Below, piece by piece: positions 9,364 to 44,254 of a stretch of 60,256 bases of DNA (positions are counted from its first letter, which is position 1; each line of letters opens with the position of its first letter). The position numbers and the translations under genes are program-made. The stretch is from Microcaldota archaeon (GTDB lineage: Archaea; Micrarchaeota; Micrarchaeia; Micrarchaeales; CABMGC01). The notes beneath the pieces were generated by a model, which did no database searches, was not told the DNA's origin, and worked only from the letters and a program-made list of their open reading frames with translations. The stretch lies in contig JAJZKU010000004.1 in the NCBI GenBank assembly GCA_021850705.1, positions 1 through 60,256 of the forward strand. The letters run 5' to 3'.

Positions 9364-10644
9364 ATGTCTTTAATAGGGTTGGCTTTCATATTCATAGCAG
9401 GCATCTCCTTTCTAGGGTTTGCCATAAATGCGCTTTTCGACAAGATAAAGATAACCAGCGTGCTTCCCTTAATGATAATAGGGCTGTTAATCGGCCCGGT
9501 CTTCGGTCTTGTAAACGTAGGCCCAAACAGCATAATAACAGAGCTTAATCCTTACATAACTGCAATAGCCATAGCGTTCGTCCTATTCGATATAGGGATG
9601 AATATGCGCATAAAGACCCTTAGCAAGGTCATATTGGCATCTACCCAGTTTGTCCTTCTTACACAGGTAATAATAGGCGCTTCAGTGGGCATATTTGTAC
9701 ACTATATAATGGGATGGTCATGGCCAATTGCACTAATATTCAGTTTTGCTGTATCTGGACCTAGTTCAATAACAGCACCTACACTTGCAAAAAACATGAA
9801 GGCTCCTGAGAACTTGCGCACCTTTATAGTATACGAAGGAGTGTTCTCCGATATCCTGGAACTTGTGGTTCCATTGGTGCTGATAAGCATATACGTGCTT
9901 CCCAACGTTGCAATAGCCACCGCTCCAGGTCCGTCAATATTCTACCAGCTAATGGGCGCAGCATCCCTTGGTGTGGTCTCGGCTTTATTCTGGCTTTACA
10001 TACTCAACAGATTTCCAGAAGCCAGCAAGAACTACAGCTGGATGCTCACTATAGCCATGGTAATAGCAACATATGGGATATCTGCCCAACTAGGCATCAA
10101 CACTGCTATAGCAGTATTCATATTCGGAATCGTGTTTGCAAACATAGGCTCGATAAACAAGGCGAAAGAAGGAGAGGAAGAGAGCTTTGTCCAGAAGTAC
10201 TTTTCAGTAAATGACTATGTAGATCATACAAGGGAGTACCAGCGCGAGATTGTCTTCTTTGTAAGCACCTTCTTCTTCGTATACATAGGATTGCTTTTCA
10301 GCCTTTCACAAATTACATTAAATATGGTGGGATTGGGAATCGCTGTAACTGCGCTTGTAATTCTATCTAGGATAATAGCCATGCCTATACTTTCCAAGGT
10401 CTTCTCCAAAGATCCTGAGACTCAGAAGATAGAACGCGGCGTGGCATACTTCAATATAGCCAGAGGTCTATCTCCTGCAATCATAGCCATATACATACTT
10501 ACTTCAGGGGTGTACGTGCAGGGATTTACAGATTCTATCTTCATGGTTATACTGATAACAAACCTGATATTCACTGCAGGGGTATTCATCTCATACAAGC
10601 CGATACTGGAAGCTCCTGCAGCTGAAAAAGCCGCTGCTAAATAA
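9364..10644 (+). CDS. cation:proton antiporter (CPA/NhaP-like)
   Basis: ~12 hydrophobic segments, PLMIIGLLIGPVFGLVN, FVLFDIGMNMR. Confidence 0.82.
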   Translation: MSLIGLAFIFIAGISFLGFAINALFDKIKITSVLPLMIIGLLIGPVFGLVNVGPNSIITELNPYITAIAIAFVLFDIGMNMRIKTLSKVILASTQFVLLTQVIIGASVGIFVHYIMGWSWPIALIFSFAVSGPSSITAPTLAKNMKAPENLRTFIVYEGVFSDILELVVPLVLISIYVLPNVAIATAPGPSIFYQLMGAASLGVVSALFWLYILNRFPEASKNYSWMLTIAMVIATYGISAQLGINTAIAVFIFGIVFANIGSINKAKEGEEESFVQKYFSVNDYVDHTREYQREIVFFVSTFFFVYIGLLFSLSQITLNMVGLGIAVTALVILSRIIAMPILSKVFSKDPETQKIERGVAYFNIARGLSPAIIAIYILTSGVYVQGFTDSIFMVILITNLIFTAGVFISYKPILEAPAAEKAAAK

Positions 10645-10686
10645 ACTTAAGACTATGTGCTTTTCCTGCAAGAAAAGGTGCAATAG

Positions 10687-11289
10687 ATGCATGAAGTAAA
10701 AGGAGCTAAGATAAAAACAATAGACGGTGTATACGCACCTGCAGAAGACACTATCATCGCCGCAGAGATTCTTCAAAGGAACATAGATGGCAGTAAGCTA
10801 TCTGTAGCAGAGATAGGCACAGGAACAGGAATCCTTGGCATAATTGCTGCCATGGACAAAAGAGTCTCCAATGTCATAATGTCAGACATATCGGAAGAAG
10901 CCCTTCAATGCGCAAAGGAGAATGCAAGATTAAACGGAGTAGAGAAAAAATGCACGTTAATCAAGAGCAATCTTTTCGATAGCATAGAAGGAAATTTCGA
11001 CATAATCATATTCAATCCGCCATATCTGCCAGAGGATGACGAAGTAAGATCGGGAAAGAACTGGTGGTCCGGAGGACCCACTGGCATAGAATTGACAAAG
11101 CTCTTCGTAGAGCAGGCAGAAGCCCACCTAAAAAGCAATGGCATTATAATAACTGTGGAAAGCTCTCTTGCAGACAGCAAAGCCCTGCATGATTTCATAG
11201 ACGCAAAAGGCTTCAGGATCGCAGACTCGGAAAAAGTGCACATCTTTTTCGAGGACATTGTTGCGCTTGCGCTTAAAAGGAAAGGCTAG
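10687..11289 (+). CDS. class I SAM methyltransferase, HemK2/Mtq2-like
   Basis: EIGTGTGILGI, IIFNPPYLPEDDE (NPPY motif), WWSGGPTGIEL. Confidence 0.85.
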   Translation: MHEVKGAKIKTIDGVYAPAEDTIIAAEILQRNIDGSKLSVAEIGTGTGILGIIAAMDKRVSNVIMSDISEEALQCAKENARLNGVEKKCTLIKSNLFDSIEGNFDIIIFNPPYLPEDDEVRSGKNWWSGGPTGIELTKLFVEQAEAHLKSNGIIITVESSLADSKALHDFIDAKGFRIADSEKVHIFFEDIVALALKRKG

Positions 11290-26717: not shown

Positions 26718-27398
26718 TTACAAACCTTTGCCTATGAGCGACTTAGAATCCATATCCACGAGTCTTTCCCAATCTGTATTACCTCCTTCCTTTAATCTTT
26801 CCTTTATGATCAGGTAACCAAGCGCATAACCAGACCACAATGCAAACTCCTTATCATCTGGACTTATGAATAATCTATTGTAAAGGTCAACACTGTTATC
26901 ATCCAGCCTATCTGTTATCTTCTGCCAGACCTCTTTTGCCTGATCCATATTCAACGCTGTCGACCACGGTCTTACCTTGCCTGTTGCAGCTTCTTCAAAG
27001 CACTGTGCAAGGCCTTCAAATGCAATCCCTGCCCCTATGCCACTGCGTTCTCTTCCAGACATTCTCTGGAATCTTACAGCGTGGTTGTATTCATGGGCAA
27101 TTGTTTGGGCAACAAAATCTCTCCAAGAATGCGCTCCTGTATTTATACTTATGGATATTACAAAATCGTTTCTTGTGAATCCAAAGACACCATCCATCCT
27201 ATCTCTTATAAAAGTGTCCTCATTGGTTGACAGAATAACTGCAATATCATTTCTGCTAATAAGCAGCTTTTCTGACTTTGCCATGCCTTCCTTTACCAAG
27301 GAAACCGCATCCTCTAACTCCTTCTCATAAGTAACAAGTACCTTGAAATTACTCATCTCTAGCTGTTCAAACCCTAATCTTCTTCCCTCATTGCCCAT
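26718..27398 (-). CDS. putative Zn-dependent protease, DUF2268-like
   Basis: HEYNH zinc motif in AQTIAHEYNHAVRFQRMSG. Confidence 0.65.
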   Translation of the reverse strand: MGNEGRRLGFEQLEMSNFKVLVTYEKELEDAVSLVKEGMAKSEKLLISRNDIAVILSTNEDTFIRDRMDGVFGFTRNDFVISISINTGAHSWRDFVAQTIAHEYNHAVRFQRMSGRERSGIGAGIAFEGLAQCFEEAATGKVRPWSTALNMDQAKEVWQKITDRLDDNSVDLYNRLFISPDDKEFALWSGYALGYLIIKERLKEGGNTDWERLVDMDSKSLIGKGL

Positions 27399-28007: not shown

Positions 28008-28265
28008 TCATTTCCTATACCTGTAATAACTAACTGCAGTTCCGCAGCTTCCTGAAGAGACCTCAGATATGGACTTTGCAAGTTCCTTCTGCTCCTCCAA
28101 GGAGCCGATCCTTGCCCTTACTATGAAGCCATAGTCCCCTTCGGTAAGCAGTACCTCATCCACACTATCAAATCCTGCAAACCTCTTTGCTAGCTCGTCC
28201 GCGTTCGTATTCTCCTTTGGCCTCACAAAGAACAATCTGTGAAGCTTCGCTATTTTCTTTGCCAT
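28008..28265 (-). CDS. small stand-alone Lrp/AsnC ligand-binding-like (RAM) protein
   Basis: 85 aa: FAGFDSVDEVLLTEGDYGFIVRARIGSLEEQKELAKSISEVSG; no HTH. Confidence 0.5.
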   Translation of the reverse strand: MAKKIAKLHRLFFVRPKENTNADELAKRFAGFDSVDEVLLTEGDYGFIVRARIGSLEEQKELAKSISEVSSGSCGTAVSYYRYRK

Positions 28266-28629: not shown

Positions 28630-30045
28630 GTGCCTAAAAGACTTCCAGATGACATAGACAGGGCTGTACGGACTATACGGAAGGAGTATGGCCATTACGT
28701 CCAGGCAAAATTCATGCATGGGAAGTACAGGCTCTTTGAGGCAACAAGTATCTACGATCCTGAAAAGAAGAAACCCAAGAAGGTCACACGATACCTGGGG
28801 TGGCTTACAGAGAGCGGACAGCTGATACCTGCCAGGCACAATGATTTGAAGACAAAGATCTTCAACAAACTTGAGGAGGATACTGAAAAGAAGATAAAGG
28901 AACTGGAAGAATCACTGAAGGAAGCGGAGAAGAAGAGTTACGAAGAAGGGATAAGGAAGAAGAATACAGAAAAACATGAACGCGACATTCTAAGGGCACT
29001 CTCAATGAATGCAAGGATAACCGTTCCAGAACTTGCGAAGATAACAGGACTCGGCAACACTGCAGTTAACTACCATCTGAGAAACCTAGAAAGACGATAC
29101 GACATAAAGTACCTATTGGAAATAGACATAGAAAAATTCGGATACATAAATTACATAGCCTTTGTAAAGTTCAAGGATAAAAGGCCGACATACGAGGAGA
29201 TGAAGAGTCAGCTTGAAGCAATCCCATACGTCCAGGTAGCAATGACAACAAAGGGAATTTATGATATGGTCATTTTCCTAGTAGTAGAAGCAAACAGTGA
29301 TGCAAGATCATCACTATACGATTTAATTAGCTTCGCATTCCCCTCTTATAATGTCGATTGGACAATGACTCCTGCATATTTCGGTGGTTTTGGGTTTATC
29401 CCATTAAGAGACCAATTCTTCGAGATTCTTAAAGAAAAGGTGTGGACAAGAACAAAGGAAAAACCAAGACCTGTACATGATGAAATAACAGAGATAGAAT
29501 ACAAAGTGCTAAGAGCAATGAATGATAATGCAGCAGCAGATTTTACATCTATAGATAAAGAGATAGGAGCAGATACTGGCAGATCAAATTATGCGTTCCA
29601 CCAGCTTATTAAAAGAGGGATAATAAAAAGAGCTACTATAAATATGCAAAATATTAACTCTAAATTTGATGTGATGTTCTTACTTAGCCATGAAAATTAT
29701 AATGAATGGGCTCCATATAGAGAAAAGTTACTTATAGAAATAATAGAAGAAAAAAGTCATCACGATACTTACTCATTTACTTGTGATACAATGTCTCCAA
29801 GAGGCGTATTGCTAATCACACACATCAAAAAAAATGAAAATCCAGAAGAAAAAGTTGAAAAACTATCAAATAAAATAAAAGGTATGTGTTTTAACACATT
29901 GATAATAACAAATCAAGTGCTTGGATTAACAAATAATAGATTATATGATAAAACTCAGTCGAGACAATACGAAGTACTAATATCTGGATATAACTATACT
30001 CCAGAAAAGATACATAGTATACTCGAACACGAAAATCGTGATTAA
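28630..30045 (+). CDS. two-module Lrp/AsnC-like HTH regulator with N-terminal transposase-like/unknown domain
   Basis: HTH ERDILRALSMNARITVPELAKITGLGNTAVNYHLRNLERRY and second HTH-like EYKVLRAMNDNAAADFTSIDKEIGADTGRSNYAFHQLIKRGII; GTG start preceded by ggtggag. Confidence 0.7.
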   Translation: MPKRLPDDIDRAVRTIRKEYGHYVQAKFMHGKYRLFEATSIYDPEKKKPKKVTRYLGWLTESGQLIPARHNDLKTKIFNKLEEDTEKKIKELEESLKEAEKKSYEEGIRKKNTEKHERDILRALSMNARITVPELAKITGLGNTAVNYHLRNLERRYDIKYLLEIDIEKFGYINYIAFVKFKDKRPTYEEMKSQLEAIPYVQVAMTTKGIYDMVIFLVVEANSDARSSLYDLISFAFPSYNVDWTMTPAYFGGFGFIPLRDQFFEILKEKVWTRTKEKPRPVHDEITEIEYKVLRAMNDNAAADFTSIDKEIGADTGRSNYAFHQLIKRGIIKRATINMQNINSKFDVMFLLSHENYNEWAPYREKLLIEIIEEKSHHDTYSFTCDTMSPRGVLLITHIKKNENPEEKVEKLSNKIKGMCFNTLIITNQVLGLTNNRLYDKTQSRQYEVLISGYNYTPEKIHSILEHENRD

Positions 30046-30281: not shown

Positions 30282-31151
30282 TTGACCAGAGAGCTTCACA
30301 GGGTTGGTATAGTGGTAGAAAGAGTAGCAACAGGGATAAAAGGATTCGACCAGCTAGTAGAAGGGGGATTCCCAAAAAGGTCATCAATACTTATAACAGG
30401 TCCTCCTGGAAGTGGCAAATCTATATTCTCAATGCAGTATATATATAACGGAGCAATGAATGGGGAGAATGGAGTTTACGTTTATATGGACTCTGCCCTA
30501 GACATTTTAAAAACGCAGGCTAAGCAATTCGGAATGGACTTTGAAAAGCTGGAGCAGGAAGGAAAGGTAACATTTATACATGTGCCTTTGACCAAGAGGA
30601 AATTCGACCTTTTCTATAATATAGAAGATTCAGTTAAGAAAATAAGTGCACAGAGGCTAGTTTTCGATAGCCTGCCAACCTTTGTAATAAACATGGACCT
30701 GTTTACAGTACCTGCTGCATATTCTGGAGCTGCAGCATCAACGGTAACCACTACAAGAGATCTGATAGCTACAAACAGCAGTGCACTTGCAGCTTCTCCT
30801 AAACAAGATAGTGATAAAATTGTGTATCAGGGCGACCAGGAAAAAAGAATTGTAAGTATAACCATAGATCAGCTGAGAAAACTTGAAACCACTAACCTTA
30901 TAGCAACGTTTGGAAACGAAGAGCTCAACAAAGTCACTATGGATGGTATAAGTGAATATGCGTGTGATGGAGTTATAGCTATGAATATCCAACACATAGC
31001 AAAGAAAACAGTAAGAAGTATAACGATTAAAAAAATGCGCAATACTAAACAGGAGCTGGATGACTTTTTACTAAACATATCCGAAAAAGGCCTGAGCGTA
31101 GAGAAAGAAAGCGTATTTGAAGGTTCCAAAATATCCGGAATCAACGAATAG
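30282..31151 (+). CDS. KaiC-like / RecA-superfamily ATPase
   Basis: ATGIKGFDQLVEGGFPKRSSILITGPPGSGKSIFSMQYIYNGAMNGENGVYVYMD; Walker B RLVFDSLPTF. Confidence 0.85.
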   Translation: MTRELHRVGIVVERVATGIKGFDQLVEGGFPKRSSILITGPPGSGKSIFSMQYIYNGAMNGENGVYVYMDSALDILKTQAKQFGMDFEKLEQEGKVTFIHVPLTKRKFDLFYNIEDSVKKISAQRLVFDSLPTFVINMDLFTVPAAYSGAAASTVTTTRDLIATNSSALAASPKQDSDKIVYQGDQEKRIVSITIDQLRKLETTNLIATFGNEELNKVTMDGISEYACDGVIAMNIQHIAKKTVRSITIKKMRNTKQELDDFLLNISEKGLSVEKESVFEGSKISGINE

Positions 31152-31156
31152 ATGCT

Positions 31157-32755
31157 ATGATGGTAGAAAAAATAGATAATTTAATAGGAGGACAGCCGAT
31201 TAATCTTGGCAAGGCTTATTTTACAGTGGAAAGTCCATTTTACAAAGATCTTAAAGTATCGATTGCAGATTCAAGTCAACTTGACATATCTATTGCTTTA
31301 TCTAAGATAAAAAACGCATGGGAAGATTGCCAAAAATTAAGTTTTAATGAAAGAGCAGATATAGTAGAAAAAGCCGCTTCAAAACTGAAGTTTACAGAAG
31401 ATGAAATAAACTCTATAGTAAAAATGCTAGGCATGCCCAAAAAATATGTTTCAATGCAGATAAACCAGATAATAGCGATAATGCAGACATTTAGAGAAAC
31501 AGTGTCTAAAAGGTACGGTTTTATAGATGAAAAGATAGGAACAAATTTCATAGAAAATGACAACTTTCATAAAATAGAATTCAGAATTCCTAAAAAAGGT
31601 TTCATCTACGCTGTTACTCCTGGAAATGACCCAAGAGTAACCTCTGTTGTATTAACTATACTTGCCCTGCTTGGCATACCTGGAATAATTAAACCTAGCA
31701 AAAACGATTATATAATCCCTATAAAAGTTGCAAAAGCAATAGTCGATGCCGGATATCCGAAAAATGGTTTAACAATATTATTCTTAAATTCAGAAAACCC
31801 TAAGTCAAAGGAATATAATTTCAGGATATGCGATGCATCCATGGCGATATGGCCGTTCGGAGACGAAAATACTGTAGACAACCTTTTAAGGATAGAAAAG
31901 CATGATGTATTCGATATAGAAAAATTCCTAAGTGACAAAAAAATAAATAACCTGAAAAACAACTTTCCAGAATTTTTAGCTGAATTGGAGAAAAGCAAAA
32001 ATTACATCGATACATATATGCTTACACAGACTATAGATCATTTTGCATCAAAACTTGTCCTTAGGCATGCATCTGGTAGATGTGCAGGAGTACTGGACGA
32101 AGATTTTGATCTGAATCTTGCAGCTAAGATGGCAATAGAATCGTCTATGGCATATCCGATAGGCTGTAATTCTATGAAATCATTATTTGTTGTAGAATCA
32201 GTATTCGACAAATTTGTGAACATACTTAAACAAGAGGTTATCAAGCTTGACAAGAAGACTTCAGACCCACTAAATCCAGATACCGAAGTTGGTTATGTTG
32301 ATAAAGAAATAGTCAACTTCATAGAAAAAAGAGTAGAGGAACTTAAGTTGCTACAGCAGGTATCAATATTGCATGGGGGTAAAAAGATAAGTCCGGTCCA
32401 ACTTACTCCTCTTATCGTCTCAACAAATGATCTAAACTCTGAATTATTGATAAACGAGATATCTGGGTATATATTATGCTTAACTAAAGTTAAATCGTTC
32501 CAAGAAGGCATATCAGAGATAAACAGATTATCTAAGAATTCGCCAAAACTGGCCATAAGCTATTTCACTAATAGCACTACTAACATGAAACACTATGTTA
32601 ATGCGCATCATGTAAAGATAAACCACGTTACTACAGACCTAGACGGGATAGTTCATGAAGGCAACGATTATATAATGCAACTTACGAGACCATATATGGT
32701 GCATCTGAACAAAGAACATACTAAAAATCATCCGTATAGGAAGGTGGCGAACTAA
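31157..32755 (+). CDS. aldehyde dehydrogenase-superfamily / LuxC-like acyl reductase
   Basis: ALDH-like YAVTPGNDPRVTSVVLTILALLGIPGIIKPS; catalytic-Cys-like YPIGCNSMKSLFVVESVFDKF. Confidence 0.7.
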   Translation: MMVEKIDNLIGGQPINLGKAYFTVESPFYKDLKVSIADSSQLDISIALSKIKNAWEDCQKLSFNERADIVEKAASKLKFTEDEINSIVKMLGMPKKYVSMQINQIIAIMQTFRETVSKRYGFIDEKIGTNFIENDNFHKIEFRIPKKGFIYAVTPGNDPRVTSVVLTILALLGIPGIIKPSKNDYIIPIKVAKAIVDAGYPKNGLTILFLNSENPKSKEYNFRICDASMAIWPFGDENTVDNLLRIEKHDVFDIEKFLSDKKINNLKNNFPEFLAELEKSKNYIDTYMLTQTIDHFASKLVLRHASGRCAGVLDEDFDLNLAAKMAIESSMAYPIGCNSMKSLFVVESVFDKFVNILKQEVIKLDKKTSDPLNPDTEVGYVDKEIVNFIEKRVEELKLLQQVSILHGGKKISPVQLTPLIVSTNDLNSELLINEISGYILCLTKVKSFQEGISEINRLSKNSPKLAISYFTNSTTNMKHYVNAHHVKINHVTTDLDGIVHEGNDYIMQLTRPYMVHLNKEHTKNHPYRKVAN

Positions 32756-33231
32756 TGCACAAAAAAGCAGAAGAATTAATGTTTGCAGATCTTCTCCGTT
32801 TCAGAGAAGACGGTAGAATAGACCTTTTTAACAACGCTGCTTTCTTACTTCCAAGTGAATTCATACTAAAAATGGAAGAGCATCTTTCTCCGGAAGAAAT
32901 TTACGTATTAGCTAAAAAAATACCCTTGCCTATTATAAAAATATTATCTGATAGGGAGATGAAGGAACTAGAAAGATTGGATTTCCTATTACAACTTGCA
33001 GAGGTTTTAGGAATGGGCAGCATCAGCGTTCCAAATTTCGATCAGAATAACGCGGCGCATCAAGTAATAATAACAAATACTAATCCAAATAAGGTATCAT
33101 GCCATCATACTAGGGGATATCTGGCCTCAATATTCTCAGATGCCTTAAAAAAGAACTTTGAATGCGAAGAAAACCAATGTGTCTCAAGAGGCGCAGACAG
33201 CTGCAAATTCACTATATCTGTTAAAGGCTAG
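32755..33231 (+). CDS. V4R-domain (4-vinyl reductase-like small-molecule-binding) protein
   Basis: C-terminal RGYLASIFSDALKKNFECEENQCVSRGADSCKFTI matches V4R signature pattern; start overlaps previous stop by 1 nt. Confidence 0.75.
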   Translation: MHKKAEELMFADLLRFREDGRIDLFNNAAFLLPSEFILKMEEHLSPEEIYVLAKKIPLPIIKILSDREMKELERLDFLLQLAEVLGMGSISVPNFDQNNAAHQVIITNTNPNKVSCHHTRGYLASIFSDALKKNFECEENQCVSRGADSCKFTISVKG

Positions 33232-34409
33232 CCTATACAGCAACCTGCTGATATTATATCATTAGGATTATCTATGCGGCTGATATCTGATATAACCTTA
33301 CTTTTAAGACCGCATTCACATTCAGACTCATTCTTAATCGTTGTTGCTTCGTCTCCAGGCGCATATCTTATATACACCGTGCCCTCACGAGCAATTGTAG
33401 TATAAATTAACAGTCCCTTTTCTCCTTTTTTTGCAGGTACTATAACGCCATCCTCCTCTTTTACTACTTCTACATAATGGGGCCCGTTAAACACGTGTAA
33501 TGCGTTGAACTGGCATACCTTATTACTTTCTATGGAACTGATATTCCCTCCTTGAGGTATGGCCTCTGAGGAACCTAAGAAGCTAGCAATGGGTTTTCTG
33601 AAAGCTTTTGACCAGTTTACAACTTCATCTATTACATTATAACCTGCTAATGCAATCTTATCAATATTGTTTTCTATAACATCATGCCCTGCTTCTACCA
33701 AGGAAAGGAAACTTGTTCCTCCTCCTTTAGATACCTTATCTCCTTCTGTGATGGGCCCTTGTGAAGTTATTAATGAATTTATCTTATACTGTTTAATAGT
33801 CTCTATAACATCATCTGAAGAATCTGTAGAACGTCTAGGTATGTATGTTGCACCAATCTTCAATATCGCTTCTTTTAGTTCTTCACCGCCCTTATGCGTC
33901 GGATTATAAGTACACATTATTCTATCATTCTCGTTAAAACCTGCGTATGCAAGAACACGAGCAAGCCCTGCACTTTCTATCTCCCTATCAAGCGGAGTGA
34001 TGAACGTTGGAGTCGCAGTCCCTTTTGTTCCTCCTGATTTATATACTTGATAATTAGATTTAATGCCGCTTGGCAATAACATATAAGGATCTGTCAGTAT
34101 CTTATCCCTAAATCCGACACCACTTGACGTTGAATCTTTAACAAGAATTGGTACAGAACTAAAATCTTCAAACGAATCAATCTTCGGGATGTTTTTGTAT
34201 GCGTTTTTATAAACAGGTATCTTATTTATTGCGCGATCAAGGCTGAACCTTAAGAAAGGTAAAAGAGCCTCTTCTAATTCTCCCTTATTTAACAGTTCCC
34301 AGGAAGAGTTTTGCCATATACTCGTAGGTATCTCCAGTGGAGACAGATACTTTCCATTACGGACATCTTCTTGAAACTCTTTAAATTCTTCATCTATTTT
34401 TAATTGCAT
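33228..34409 (-). CDS. PaaK/LuxE-like adenylate-forming (acyl-CoA/acyl-protein ligase-like) enzyme
   Basis: VYKSGGTKGTATPTF (adenylation P-loop-like), AGLARVLAYAGFNENDRIM, FLGSSEAIPQGG, IRYAPGDEATTIKNESECECGLKSKVISDISRIDN. Confidence 0.7.
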   Translation of the reverse strand: MQLKIDEEFKEFQEDVRNGKYLSPLEIPTSIWQNSSWELLNKGELEEALLPFLRFSLDRAINKIPVYKNAYKNIPKIDSFEDFSSVPILVKDSTSSGVGFRDKILTDPYMLLPSGIKSNYQVYKSGGTKGTATPTFITPLDREIESAGLARVLAYAGFNENDRIMCTYNPTHKGGEELKEAILKIGATYIPRRSTDSSDDVIETIKQYKINSLITSQGPITEGDKVSKGGGTSFLSLVEAGHDVIENNIDKIALAGYNVIDEVVNWSKAFRKPIASFLGSSEAIPQGGNISSIESNKVCQFNALHVFNGPHYVEVVKEEDGVIVPAKKGEKGLLIYTTIAREGTVYIRYAPGDEATTIKNESECECGLKSKVISDISRIDNPNDIISAGCCIG

Positions 34410-34432
34410 AAAATCCCTATAATTACTATATG

Positions 34433-35803
34433 CTATTTCTTGCTTGTAAGAAGTCTACTGTAAAATACAAATATGTTATTTGTTAGATGGTGACAGCTTG
34501 CCAAATCCCCTTCTTTAGAACCTATCTCTCCAGAAGTAGTAAACCCTACGATGTTGGCGCCTCGAAATCCTTGCTTAAGCTTCTTTAAGTCTTCTGGAAA
34601 TTGCTCCTTCATAACGTTTTTACGAGTAAGGCAGGAGGTTAAAAGTATTAAGCTAGGTTGATTAGTCTCTTCAGTATATTGTTGTATATTAGTAACTATC
34701 TCGTCAGTAGCGCTGAATAAATTTTTAGGATCTCCATCCATCAAGAATATAGGTGCCCCCTCTATAACTGGTGCAGGATATGCCAGACTCTCGTTATCGG
34801 GTCCTGTAGGAACACCTCCTCCTCTTACTATTATGTTACCTAATGTATCTACCATTCCTATGGGCCATCTTTGAGTAATTCCGAGTGTCATCGCACTGTC
34901 TACAAACTCCTTTTTACTCATCTTAAGTTTTTTAGAGTACCAGTCAACAGGCTTCTGTCCGGATATCTCATCAACTACATATCCGCCAAGCGATGTCTTA
35001 CTAACTACATCTAAAGATCCTGTTTTCTTGGCACCATGTGCCATGGAATATCCATAAAGCATGCTGGTAACAGTAAACATGATTATCAAACCATCTTTGT
35101 AGACTTTACCAGAATGGAGCGAATATATGTCATATTTATTCATTATGTTTTCTAAAGAGGTTTCAAAGCTTCCTCCCCATATTGGTACCTGCCTGCCAAC
35201 AGTATCAGATATGCCTAAAATAATCTTATCCTCTTCTCCCATCTTAGGCAATTTGAACCCGTTAACAAAAACATGGATATAATAAGGTGGTACCTTTACA
35301 ATGCCCCTAATATCTCCGCTCTTCAGTCTAAGTGCTTGCATATAAGGGTCAACGTAATTATCAATCGATAATTTTGTTAATGCCTCTTTAGACACCTTCT
35401 TGGCAACTCCGAAAGAATCTTCGGAAGCACCATCTGCAGAAGCAATACCAACATGTAAGAAATCAGACTGTATACTTGCTACAACAACTCCTTTGTCAAG
35501 GACCTTATTATCGTATATTACGCTTCCTCCTAAACCTCCAACAAACTCAGTATTCTTTAAGACCTCCTTTAAACCTTTAGTCAGTTCATATGGGTCGTAA
35601 TTTCCAGAGAAAAATACATAACTAACAGTGGGATCCTTCCCATTAAGTTTAGACAATGCCTGCTGTGCAGCCTCCTTTGCCGCCAGATATGCATTAGCAT
35701 TAACAGACATTCCACTTCCAACTAACATTGTTGTATTTTCAGAACTCTTTATATCTTGCAGTTTCCCCCATTTAGTTACCAACCCATCTTCCATATAATT
35801 CAC
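34433..35803 (-). CDS. FIST-domain sensory protein (FIST_N + FIST_C)
   Basis: YVFFSGNYDPYELTKGLKEVLKNTEFVGGLGGSVIYDNKV...; C-terminal LILLTSCLTRKNVM...GFTTSGEIG. Confidence 0.8.
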   Translation of the reverse strand: MNYMEDGLVTKWGKLQDIKSSENTTMLVGSGMSVNANAYLAAKEAAQQALSKLNGKDPTVSYVFFSGNYDPYELTKGLKEVLKNTEFVGGLGGSVIYDNKVLDKGVVVASIQSDFLHVGIASADGASEDSFGVAKKVSKEALTKLSIDNYVDPYMQALRLKSGDIRGIVKVPPYYIHVFVNGFKLPKMGEEDKIILGISDTVGRQVPIWGGSFETSLENIMNKYDIYSLHSGKVYKDGLIIMFTVTSMLYGYSMAHGAKKTGSLDVVSKTSLGGYVVDEISGQKPVDWYSKKLKMSKKEFVDSAMTLGITQRWPIGMVDTLGNIIVRGGGVPTGPDNESLAYPAPVIEGAPIFLMDGDPKNLFSATDEIVTNIQQYTEETNQPSLILLTSCLTRKNVMKEQFPEDLKKLKQGFRGANIVGFTTSGEIGSKEGDLASCHHLTNNIFVFYSRLLTSKK

Positions 35804-36234
35804 CCTAACTTACTGAGCCCTTTTTTACCAGAAGGAACGATTGACCTTTCAACCTTCTTTATCTCAATCGATTCAACCAACATAGGTCGTAAACGGCTCG
35901 GTATTGTTTTGTTAAGCGTCTCTTCAAGTGAGCTCTTGAATTGTTCTGCATTCTCCTTTTCCTTAAAATGCCCTATTAACGTAATAGGAGTGCCTATAAG
36001 AAGTTCAAGCAAACCATCTTTCATAATTAGCCTATGGAAAAATCTTGTTTCTAAGAAATCAGCTCCAAGATAAACAGACTCATATTTTAATGAAGATTCA
36101 AGATCTAAAATGAATTGCTTTAAGTTTCCAATGGCTATCTCCTCCTGCCTTGTTAAGATATTCTCTCTTTCTAATTTAAATGGTAAAATCCCACTAAAAT
36201 CTACAAGAACTACATCGTATGACTCTTTAATCAT
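35800..36234 (-). CDS. hypothetical protein co-transcribed with FIST protein
   Basis: 144 aa, 4-nt overlap with FIST gene. Confidence 0.6.
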   Translation of the reverse strand: MIKESYDVVLVDFSGILPFKLERENILTRQEEIAIGNLKQFILDLESSLKYESVYLGADFLETRFFHRLIMKDGLLELLIGTPITLIGHFKEKENAEQFKSSLEETLNKTIPSRLRPMLVESIEIKKVERSIVPSGKKGLSKLG

Positions 36235-36906: not shown

Positions 36907-37695
36907 CTATCCTCCTCCGCTGCTGTAGTCCTTCAGCAGTGTGTAGAATATCTTCCTTGAAACGAAGATAACGACTAATGATAGCAACAGTGCTGCAGCT
37001 ACTGCAGTAGGGCCGATCATGCCGAAAAGTGCTTCTGCAGGATAGTAGTATGCTATTCCTATTGGCATTGCAAGGGTGAATATCAGCTGCCCAAGTACTC
37101 CATAAACGCTTAATGGGTATGTACCTGCATTGCTGAGCATGCTCTCCATATTATTTATGAATTGCCCGCTCTTGAACAAACGATAAGAGAGAATGGACAT
37201 CATCACGAAGAACATCAGGAACGCAGCAGTGCCTGTGATGAAGAGCAATGCAAAGTAAACTAACTGCATTGCGGTTATGCCGAGATGCATTGCCGAATAG
37301 ATAAACAAAGCAAGTCCAGACATGAAACCTGCGGAGTCCCAGACCATGCCGAAGCCGCCAGAGATTATCGTAAGGTAGCCGTAGGGCTTCGTGAACCACA
37401 TGTCCATGTTCCCTCTCCTAAGCCTCTGTGCCACATCCCACGGGGCTATCATATAATCTACGAACCCGAACATCATTGATGTAATGCTGGACAGTGCAAG
37501 CACCTGGAAGTAGGACCATCCTGGTATGCCGCTCGATACTGTGTAAATAACAGTTATCGCCACTATGCTGTTTAAGATCACGAGTAAATCAGCAAATAAC
37601 CATATGAAAGCCTGCCATCTGTATATAAGGAAGCTCTTCCATGCCATCTTCTGCACGTTGATCAAAAAACTTAGATTATCTATGAATCTGCTCAT
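36907..37695 (-). CDS. ABC-2 type transporter permease
   Basis: ~6 TM segments, arrangement with 37696 permease and 38506 ATPase. Confidence 0.8.
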   Translation of the reverse strand: MSRFIDNLSFLINVQKMAWKSFLIYRWQAFIWLFADLLVILNSIVAITVIYTVSSGIPGWSYFQVLALSSITSMMFGFVDYMIAPWDVAQRLRRGNMDMWFTKPYGYLTIISGGFGMVWDSAGFMSGLALFIYSAMHLGITAMQLVYFALLFITGTAAFLMFFVMMSILSYRLFKSGQFINNMESMLSNAGTYPLSVYGVLGQLIFTLAMPIGIAYYYPAEALFGMIGPTAVAAALLLSLVVIFVSRKIFYTLLKDYSSGGG

Positions 37696-38499
37696 CTAAC
37701 CACCTACGGATGTAATATTCTTCTTTACTCTTTTCCACCAGAAGAACGCAAAGATGCCTAGTACTATGGCCCAAACTGTACCTACCAGTAACCCATTGAC
37801 TATGGCAGCAGGCGTGGCAGTCCCAAGAAATATTGATACTGGGAGATAGCCCATGTCCTGAAATGGCAGTGCATATACTATGTTGGAAAGATACTGGGGA
37901 AACATGCTTAGCGGCACCGTTCCTCCTGCTACGATGTATACAAGTATGCCTATCATATACCTTAACCCATAAACACGGGTCACAAATAGGGCAAGCGTTC
38001 CTATAAGGAAGCTGATTATGCCAAATACTGCGAAACCTACTGCAAGGGTGAGCAGTGCCAATGCTATGCTATATACGGTTATTGGAATATGCGCCACGAG
38101 CACAGCTATCAGCAGCAGTGGCAGCGAGAAGGTGGCAACTCCCACCATCATATTGCTAACAGATGCAATAAACAGATGCATCACATAATTTACAGGCCTT
38201 ATGATTATAGCAGTTATTGTCCCTTCAAGCACATCATTCTGAATGTAATAGGCGATGTTTGATTCAGCTATAGCATAGAAAGCGACGAAAAGGAAGAAAT
38301 ATGCGTATATGCCTTGCAACGTGAATCCTCCAATCTGTTTTGCTCCTGAGCTTTCAAAGAGTACTGTCCATACAAATATCATAAGCAGCGCGTAACCTAT
38401 GCTGAAGACCATTTCCAGTAAGAAGTCTGTCTTGTAATAAAAGACATCCTTCAGGTCTATCTTAAGCATGCCTATATACGGCTCCAGGTATCTATTCAT
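37696..38499 (-). CDS. ABC-2 type transporter permease
   Basis: ~6 TM segments; NDVLEGTITAIIIRPVNYVMHLF. Confidence 0.8.
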   Translation of the reverse strand: MNRYLEPYIGMLKIDLKDVFYYKTDFLLEMVFSIGYALLMIFVWTVLFESSGAKQIGGFTLQGIYAYFFLFVAFYAIAESNIAYYIQNDVLEGTITAIIIRPVNYVMHLFIASVSNMMVGVATFSLPLLLIAVLVAHIPITVYSIALALLTLAVGFAVFGIISFLIGTLALFVTRVYGLRYMIGILVYIVAGGTVPLSMFPQYLSNIVYALPFQDMGYLPVSIFLGTATPAAIVNGLLVGTVWAIVLGIFAFFWWKRVKKNITSVGG

Positions 38500-38505
38500 C
38501 TTCTA

Positions 38506-39489
38506 TCACTGCTTATCCATCTTCTTGTACAGCTTTGAGAGTACGAAGTTCAGCCCAGGCTCATATACCTTGTAATCAATGACATTGTCGCCCGAGAGCA
38601 TGCCTATGAATCCTTTGCTCTTCAATATCTTCCTGTTAACCTCCAGCTTTACGAAGTTGTCCGAACTCTCCAATATCTTTCCATACTTCCTGAATTCAGC
38701 TCCTGATGAGCTCCTAAGCTCAAGGTCTATCATGCGCTTGTCTCCAAAGAGATGCTCAAGCTTACTCCTAGGCCCGTCAAAGACCAGCCTGCCCTTGTTT
38801 ATGAGAATTACCTTCTCGGCCATGGTTATGTCTTCAACCAGATGCGTTGTTATCACGAAGGTCGTATTGTACCTCTTCTGCATGCTCAGGATCATGGAAC
38901 GGAGCGCAGTCTTTGAAGGCAGATCCACGCCTATCGTGGGCTCGTCAAGGAAGACTATCTTGGGCATATGCAGCACAGAGGCTACGAAGTTGCACTTCAT
39001 CTGCTCTCCAAGAGAGAGCGTCCTTACCGGCCTCCTGTACACCTTCTTCAGGTCCAGCATCTCCAGCAGCTCCTCCAGACGCTTCCTGTACTCCTTCTCA
39101 GGTATCCTATATATCGAGCGTATGAAGTCAAAGGTGTCTATTGCAGGCAGGTTCCAGTAGAGCTGCCCATGCGCTCCCAATACCACTCCTATCTGCGAAG
39201 CTATCCTTATCCTGTTCTCCCACGGGTCCACTCCCATTATCCTGACGCTTCCGCTGTCTGGGTGCAGTATCCCTGTCATTGTCTTTATCAGCGTGGACTT
39301 CCCGCTTCCGTTCCTTCCCAGCAGTGCCACTATCTCTCCCTCATTCACAGAGAAGCTCAGGCCGTCAAGGGCCGTCTTGTTGTAGCTCTTGCGTATCAGC
39401 TTCGCCAAAAAGCCGCCGTTCTTCCTGTGTTCATGGGTTCTGAACCTCTTCTTCACATCCTTTACTTCTATTATCTTCTCCATAAGCAT
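38506..39489 (-). CDS. ABC transporter ATP-binding protein
   Basis: LLGRNGSGKSTLIKTMTG, LSLGEQMKCNFV, IVFLDEPTIGVD. Confidence 0.93.
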   Translation of the reverse strand: MLMEKIIEVKDVKKRFRTHEHRKNGGFLAKLIRKSYNKTALDGLSFSVNEGEIVALLGRNGSGKSTLIKTMTGILHPDSGSVRIMGVDPWENRIRIASQIGVVLGAHGQLYWNLPAIDTFDFIRSIYRIPEKEYRKRLEELLEMLDLKKVYRRPVRTLSLGEQMKCNFVASVLHMPKIVFLDEPTIGVDLPSKTALRSMILSMQKRYNTTFVITTHLVEDITMAEKVILINKGRLVFDGPRSKLEHLFGDKRMIDLELRSSSGAEFRKYGKILESSDNFVKLEVNRKILKSKGFIGMLSGDNVIDYKVYEPGLNFVLSKLYKKMDKQ

Positions 39490-43180: not shown

Positions 43181-44254
43181 TTATTTATATGTTACGAATT
43201 TAATCGGTTTTTTACTGATTGCTTCCATTTCACATCTCCATTTTACGTAACTGTTTGTATTAAATGGCCACATTCCAGTTATCAACTCCGTCAACATACA
43301 TTGCTCTACATACGGATACTCATTATGCCATGCTTTTTTTAGGAATTCAGGTCCTGTCTCATTAAGGCAAACGCCATCTTTAAAATTACAAAAATACACT
43401 GCATCAAAATATCCTGTCGTATCACATACTACAGAATAATCTGAAGTAACTTGCCCTTCACTTTTAGAACCAATTACTTTGTAAAGAAAAGGCAATAATG
43501 ACATTTTATGATGATTTTCATTTGGTATAATTACTTCTGCATAAAATAGAAATATTCGCTTATCTGGATTTTGTACACACATTCTAAAACCCTTTATTAT
43601 GCCCTTTTCAACCAATTTATTAATTGCATATATTACCCTCATTTTGGATACTCCTGTTGCTGCTGCCAACTCTCCTAATCTTATTCTGGAATTATCAAGC
43701 AATTTTGTCAATATTAATTTTTCCACTTTATTTATACGCTCAACTTTGGCCCTTGTAATTAACGTACTCTTCACTGGCATGAATCCTTCAACCATATCAT
43801 TAAGCGTCACGGTCTTTACCCTTGGCTTATAAAAAGACAAGCCAACTCTAAACGCAAATTCCCAATGCTTATATTTAACATAGTCCATCCCCACTATATG
43901 TATAATAAGATCAAAATCTCCTGTTGCAAGATATGCGTTCTGAACAAACGGATCTTTCCCAAGGACCTTCTTTAAAAGAGCTATATCGGGAACTCTTTCC
44001 TGAAACTTTATTGCAATTATTCTAGGCTCTGAGAAACCAAGAAGGTTTGTATCTACGTCTAATGTATACTTAAGATTATACTTCTCTTCACACTCCTTAA
44101 GGCATTTGGAAAGCGTATGGTGGGATATTCCTAGCTTGCGCTCAAGCTCCTTTATGGAAACCCTTGAATTAAGGTAAAGCTCCTTAAGCAGTTCATGAGG
44201 AAGTTTTTCCTCTATTCTCTTCCTCTGATAAGATGATGCTGACATGTTATACAC
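43181..44254 (-). CDS. two-module Lrp/AsnC-like HTH regulator
   Basis: HTH1 RVSIKELERKLGISHHTLSKCLKECEEKYNLKY; HTH2 RIRLGELAAATGVSKMRVIYAINKLVEKGIIKG. Confidence 0.72.
   Translation of the reverse strand: MYNMSASSYQRKRIEEKLPHELLKELYLNSRVSIKELERKLGISHHTLSKCLKECEEKYNLKYTLDVDTNLLGFSEPRIIAIKFQERVPDIALLKKVLGKDPFVQNAYLATGDFDLIIHIVGMDYVKYKHWEFAFRVGLSFYKPRVKTVTLNDMVEGFMPVKSTLITRAKVERINKVEKLILTKLLDNSRIRLGELAAATGVSKMRVIYAINKLVEKGIIKGFRMCVQNPDKRIFLFYAEVIIPNENHHKMSLLPFLYKVIGSKSEGQVTSDYSVVCDTTGYFDAVYFCNFKDGVCLNETGPEFLKKAWHNEYPYVEQCMLTELITGMWPFNTNSYVKWRCEMEAISKKPIKFVTYK

Follow-up and report, generated by a model that had tools for sequence, protein, structure and literature searches.

The window analyzed here is a stretch of 60,256 nucleotides, contig C11 of the metagenome-assembled genome (MAG; 0.65 Mb in 24 contigs, 79% complete) of an uncultured small archaeon that its kin place in the Micrarchaeota. 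It carries a cluster of six genes, which a first-pass annotation had proposed to encode a system that activates and reduces an acyl or aromatic acid and couples this chemistry to sensing. All six open reading frames are present at the coordinates first assigned to them, with intact frames. The forward strand encodes a single-domain KaiC-like ATPase (30282-31151; PF06745, E = 4.1e-48), a divergent protein of the aldehyde dehydrogenase (ALDH) superfamily that is probably an acyl reductase (31157..32755; PF00171, 2.1e-29), and a stand-alone V4R ligand-binding protein (32755..33231; PF02830, 1.1e-10). The reverse strand encodes a PaaK-related adenylate-forming enzyme, hereafter the ligase, that lacks a C-terminal subdomain and ends in GCCIG (33228..34409; NCBIfam paak_haloarch, 9.7e-16), a sensor protein with FIST N and FIST C domains (34433..35803; PF08495, 5.5e-19, and PF10442, 1.6e-14), and a 144-aa protein without a family match that recurs beside FIST or V4R genes (35800..36234). 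The ATPase gene is annotated from a TTG at 30282; a GTG start at 30312 (30312..31151) is likelier, since the KaiC homologues begin with MERVKTG or similar. The V4R and ligase genes do meet tail to tail in a 4-nt overlap (CTAG, 33228-33231), and the FIST and 144-aa genes form a second 4-nt overlap. The description of the locus as two converging operons is accurate for the window, but this layout is not conserved: in JA4.bin46, a Candidatus Micrarchaeota genome of the same order as the window genome, the genes for both enzymes, FIST, V4R, and the 144-aa protein are co-directional. The tail-to-tail arrangement is local to the window.

We determined the distribution of these genes across 301 genomes of the phylum. 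Close homologues of the ligase occur in four of them, i.e., the window genome, G180 (73% identity; locus L037), G228 (which is JA4.bin46; 70%; L036), and G297 (47-49%; L039). The 144-aa gene occurs in eight genomes that include all four with the ligase; the chance of the four falling within the eight is approximately 2e-7 (70 / C(301,4)), in a calculation that ignores the kinship of the genomes. Strong matches to the FIST protein were found in six genomes, and family-specific matches to the ALDH in the window genome, G228, and G297, plus a contig-edge fragment comprising the C-terminal part in G299 (L093). FIST and 144-aa genes lie near the ligase gene in all four ligase loci, and ALDH and V4R genes in three, the contig ending in the fourth. 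The six genes therefore co-occur in other genera, not by chance, and the idea that they form a recurring system is upheld; the outcome named beforehand as refuting it, that homologues never occur together, does not hold.

Gene order varies between these loci. In G228 the order is 144-aa, FIST, ligase, UbiA-like, ALDH, and V4R, with KaiC convergent to them. In G180 it is 144-aa, FIST, ligase, and UbiA-like, followed at the contig edge by the 5' part of a second ligase gene (L037:2-250), which suggests that ligases stand in tandem there. G297 has V4R and 144-aa genes on one strand, genes for FIST, a 515-aa protein resembling short-chain dehydrogenases/reductases, ligase, and ALDH on the other, and KaiC genes on both flanks; its ligase and ALDH genes overlap (9870-11027 and 11015-12454 of L039), with one gene between their counterparts in L036. 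In G299 the end of the ALDH gene is followed by the 144-aa and V4R genes. G007 carries KaiC, V4R, FIST, and 144-aa genes together with four further V4R proteins and no ligase or ALDH, and in G033 and G178 (L090 and L092) 144-aa and KaiC genes lie near genes for response regulators and PAS histidine kinases. Since KaiC, V4R, FIST, and 144-aa genes are found without the ligase and ALDH, they form a sensory core, to which the two enzymes are an add-on. Genes for mevalonate-kinase-like GHMP kinases also occur in islands of FIST, V4R, and KaiC genes (L089:4496-5662 in G007 and L091:4112-5152 in G178).

The ligase was absent from the five other genomes of the window genome's genus, and a search of the 60 nearest relatives returned no ligase beyond the window genome and, for the ALDH, weak matches to other ALDHs. 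A scan of named genomes with the ALDH found one locus, that of JA4.bin46. Viral contigs contained no ligase, and plasmids gave PaaK-type matches of about 25% identity and no FIST. Two further genomes of the phylum gave weak ligase matches, G091 and G090; the latter was discarded, as its genes look like those of a sugar locus with CapK-like proteins. Contamination was set aside as the source of the cluster because four genomes of the Micrarchaeota contain homologous clusters. Horizontal transfer remains likely given how patchily the clusters are distributed.

The ligase has no Pfam match that passes the cut-off, and its matches to PaaK- and F390-type NCBIfam models are weak and far below the cut-offs (paak_haloarch as above; F390 synthetase, 2.6e-10); a match to the PDB structure 4r1l has an E-value of 1e-8. 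We aligned the four cluster ligases with six full-length proteins of the PaaK family. The adenylation motifs are retained, i.e., the P-loop SGGTKGTATP (in which G297 has Arg instead of Lys), GSSEA (GSSE in PaaK), RYAPGD (RYxxGD), and the A8 Arg/Asp, as is a CxC motif. All four proteins end at the invariant A8 glycine within the sequence GCC[IV]G (G-C-C-x-G), such that two invariant Cys residues occupy positions -4 and -3 relative to the C-terminus, whereas the six PaaK-family proteins extend for about 100 residues further. None of the four has the C-terminal subdomain of PaaK and the Lys at its end. Given that four MAGs share this end, a frameshift is an unlikely cause of the truncation. By alignment, the ligase is a PaaK-related, truncated, and Cys-tailed protein.

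The Cys within YPIGCNSMKS of the ALDH, earlier singled out as a candidate catalytic residue, aligns with the ALDH nucleophile (Cys337). Also retained are Asn157 and the cofactor residues Lys179 and Glu434, the latter equivalent to Glu399. At the position of the general base (Glu268 of ALDH2), however, all three full-length cluster ALDHs have His (His304 in the window), as opposed to Glu in each of the 21 other ALDHs of the phylum used for comparison. They share the PF00171 match and nucleophilic Cys of the superfamily, but not the general-base Glu of hydrolytic aldehyde dehydrogenases. Loss of this Glu fits an enzyme whose thioester escapes hydrolysis. The homologues of the window ALDH are 56% and 37% identical to it, and the cluster ALDHs score 65-103 bits against the Aldedh model compared to 420-532 for six ordinary ALDHs; on these scores and residues, they are a distinct and very divergent family.

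Of the remaining four proteins, V4R, FIST, and KaiC belong to sensory or signaling families. The V4R protein keeps the motif E-x2-C-x7-C along with its PF02830 match, E139, C142, and C150 being invariant in the alignment of homologues, and gives a profile match to the structure of MJ1460 (2OSD, 5.6e-4). FIST homologues are 76, 72, and 44% identical to the window protein, which matches both FIST families. The ATPase, confirmed as KaiC-like by its PF06745 match, has a Walker A (GPPGSGKS) and a Walker B (LVFDS) motif. Where KaiC has a pair of Glu residues following beta-2, the window protein reads D-S (YMDSA); the Walker A motif is intact, and ATP hydrolysis may be weak owing to this substitution. 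For the 144-aa protein, there was no convincing Pfam or NCBIfam match. Its AlphaFold2 model, of fair confidence (pLDDT 78.8, pTM 0.74), is a single alpha/beta domain of the order b-a-bbbb-a-b. Resemblances of this fold to S-adenosylmethionine decarboxylase and to profilin/roadblock proteins were too weak to adopt, with no significant fold match.

Two of the loci contain a further gene, for a divergent UbiA-like prenyltransferase; it separates the ligase gene from the ALDH gene in L036 and adjoins the ligase gene in L037. These copies have no Pfam match themselves; the assignment is based on a homologue in G008 that scores 0.4 bits above the Pfam cut-off and on an aspartate-rich motif. Elsewhere in the Micrarchaeota, UbiA-like genes have KaiC, methyltransferase, or Lrp-type regulator genes in their vicinity, and L095 and L106 have UbiA-like, methyltransferase, and KaiC genes together. 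No copy of the family was detected in the window genome (79% complete) or in the L039 cluster. The gene hints at a prenylated ligand and is not a required part of the system. Proteins of about 370 aa are also repeatedly encoded near KaiC and UbiA-like genes in Micrarchaeota (L106:7043-8161, L108:10024-11124, L095:3004-4125, and L091:2011-3141); the two scanned, from L106 and L091, had no Pfam match.

The Cys-tailed, truncated ligase and the ALDH without its hydrolytic Glu support the view that the two proteins probably form a pair that reduces an acid to an aldehyde. The recurrence of the set elsewhere in the phylum suggests that its products process a small molecule and sense that same molecule. 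Our tentative reading, to which we assign a probability of about 0.4, is a small-molecule module of Micrarchaeota in which an acid-to-aldehyde pair feeds the sensors or is regulated by them. A precedent for the chemistry is LuxE, which converts an acid to an acyl-AMP and then to a thioester on its C-terminal Cys364, from which the acyl group passes to a Cys of LuxC for reduction (PMC8301110). From the residues and gene neighbors described above, we infer each catalytic step of the module, its direction, the ligand, and the relay as follows. The PaaK-related enzyme would adenylate a carboxylic acid, which might be an aromatic or prenylated one, and, having no C-terminal subdomain of the kind present in its relatives, would shift the acyl group to its own C-terminal Cys pair, as LuxE does to Cys364. 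The acyl group would then pass to Cys337 of the ALDH and be reduced to the aldehyde with NAD(P)H, the absent Glu preventing hydrolysis of the thioester to the acid. Together with the 144-aa protein, FIST and V4R would bind the substrate or product, and the KaiC-like ATPase would relay their state to two-component or transcriptional outputs.

Several observations weigh against this reading. The LuxE family (PF04443) had no match up to an E-value of 10, either in the cluster-bearing genomes or among the four ligases. The Cys pair of the ligase tail could alternatively bind metal, form a disulfide, or serve for lipid attachment, and the AlphaFold model of the ligase is too poor to use (pLDDT 54.5) and does not show whether the tail reaches the active site. 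In the ALDH, the cofactor-contacting glycine loop FTGSxxxG reads FGDENTVDN, which makes cofactor use uncertain. Two of the three cluster ALDHs match the LuxC family (PF05893) above its cut-off (32.0 and 21.1 bits) and that of the window does not; these matches are not clearly stronger than those of ordinary ALDHs, which reach 26.4 bits. Finally, the occurrence of the sensory core without the enzymes at other loci means that the coupling of enzymes to sensors may be loose. The earlier proposal survives in part. Its expectation of acid activation and reduction coupled to sensing agrees with the residue-level features of the pair, with the V4R, FIST, and KaiC families, and with the two-component neighbors, and the anticipated matches to PF00171, PF02830, PF08495, and PF10442 were obtained. 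Neither enzyme is shown to be a member of the LuxC or LuxE family, and we do not adopt such membership; the ligase, first labeled PaaK/LuxE-like, is PaaK-related. No luciferase was recognized among the translated neighbors, in agreement with the earlier account, though no search was aimed at luciferase genes (luxAB).

Other explanations account for parts of the same evidence. The ligase might convert an aromatic or prenylated acid into its acyl-coenzyme A (acyl-CoA) or acyl-AMP form, a building block for the neighboring UbiA-like prenyltransferase and methyltransferase that would lead to a quinone- or lipid-like secondary metabolite, with the ALDH acting on an intermediate and the sensors providing conventional feedback. 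We consider this doubtful while giving it real weight, since it draws support from the L036 and L037 loci, where the UbiA-like gene adjoins that of the ligase, and from the grouping of UbiA-like, methyltransferase, and KaiC genes in L106 and L095; against this, the family is not obligate, being undetected in the window genome and absent from the L039 cluster, and an ordinary CoA ligase would be expected to have the C-terminal subdomain that is lost here. The truncation and Cys tail also speak against a catabolic pathway, in which an aldehyde would be oxidized to an acid that is then activated and broken down, V4R and FIST being ordinary inducer sensors. A haloarchaeal paaK locus also has an ALDH gene and V4R resembles, in a weak match, phenol-sensor domains such as that of MopR, but the hydrolytic Glu is lost from the ALDH and catabolic neighbors of the haloarchaeal gene, such as paaI thioesterase and thiolase genes, were not recognized in the four clusters, making breakdown improbable.

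It is likewise rather unlikely that the ligase and ALDH are former enzymes now serving as ligand-binding parts of a signaling complex with FIST, V4R, and KaiC. Their weak family scores, the altered cofactor loop of the ALDH, and the sensor proteins all around them are consistent with such a fate; conversely, even homologues of 37-47% identity still have the catalytic Cys, Asn, Lys, and Glu and the adenylation motifs. At the other extreme, the acid-to-aldehyde module might be a self-contained signaling system, in which a Cys-tailed ligase with independently acquired LuxE-like chemistry makes an aldehyde ligand that FIST and V4R read and KaiC relays, perhaps as a signal between cells or with a host. 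We think it improbable that the module goes this far.

Upstream of the cluster, the window encodes a two-module Lrp/AsnC-like regulator (28630..30045, forward strand; HTH_24, 2.9e-11). Its product is 28.9% identical over 460 aa (blastp) to that of L036:3456-4889, upstream of the JA4.bin46 cluster, and is possibly a cluster-associated regulator. A related, regulator-like protein is encoded at 43181-44254 of the window, and in L105 and L107 two-module regulators of a similar kind are encoded beside UbiA-like genes. At 28008-28265 is a gene for an 85-aa stand-alone AsnC/RAM-like domain protein with a 39%-identical counterpart in G180, whose gene (L037:9050-9310) and the 144-aa gene there are some 5 kb apart. 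The 226-aa product of 26718-27398, by eye a DUF2268-type zinc peptidase (HEYNH), has a 47%-identical counterpart in the same locus (L037:5853-6548), and the wider neighborhood is on this account partly common to the window and G180. Next to the six genes, 36907-39489 reads by eye as an ABC transporter cluster of an ATPase and two ABC-2-like permeases.

Little is known about the molecules that DPANN archaea with small genomes sense or produce, and a recurring module in which the activation and reduction of an acid are tied to three sensory families offers a concrete, testable lead on the ligands of FIST, V4R, and KaiC proteins. If our reading is true, the ligase is a clear case of a mobile C-terminal subdomain swapped for a short Cys tail, and its truncation bears on the origin of LuxE-type chemistry from PaaK-type enzymes.

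Gamma-glutamyl phosphate reductase and methylmalonate-semialdehyde dehydrogenase are ALDH relatives without the general-base Glu, and both are among the PDB matches of the cluster ALDH; the nucleophilic Cys is common to these acyl-transferring enzymes and the cluster ALDHs, which differ by the His at the general-base position and by their strong divergence. With phenylacetate-CoA ligase (PaaK) and coenzyme F390 synthetase, the cluster ligase shares about 330 related residues, including the adenylation and CxC motifs, but it has the G-C-C-x-G tail instead of the C-terminal subdomain and scores far under the cut-offs of those families. KaiC-like ATPases have been proposed as signaling hubs of archaea (Makarova 2017, as cited in PMC5847659), and the same KaiC, V4R, and FIST families are grouped with two-component genes in related loci; here they are joined to a ligase, an ALDH, and a new 144-aa protein. 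The likeness to LuxE and LuxC lies in an adenylating enzyme with an ALDH-superfamily partner, a Cys near the C-terminus of the ligase, and a nucleophilic Cys in the putative reductase. In contrast to the Lux pair, the cluster has no PF04443 match, an unspecific LuxC match, and V4R, FIST, KaiC, and 144-aa genes as neighbors, such that its resemblance to LuxE, judged by analogy, is one of chemistry and anatomy rather than of family.

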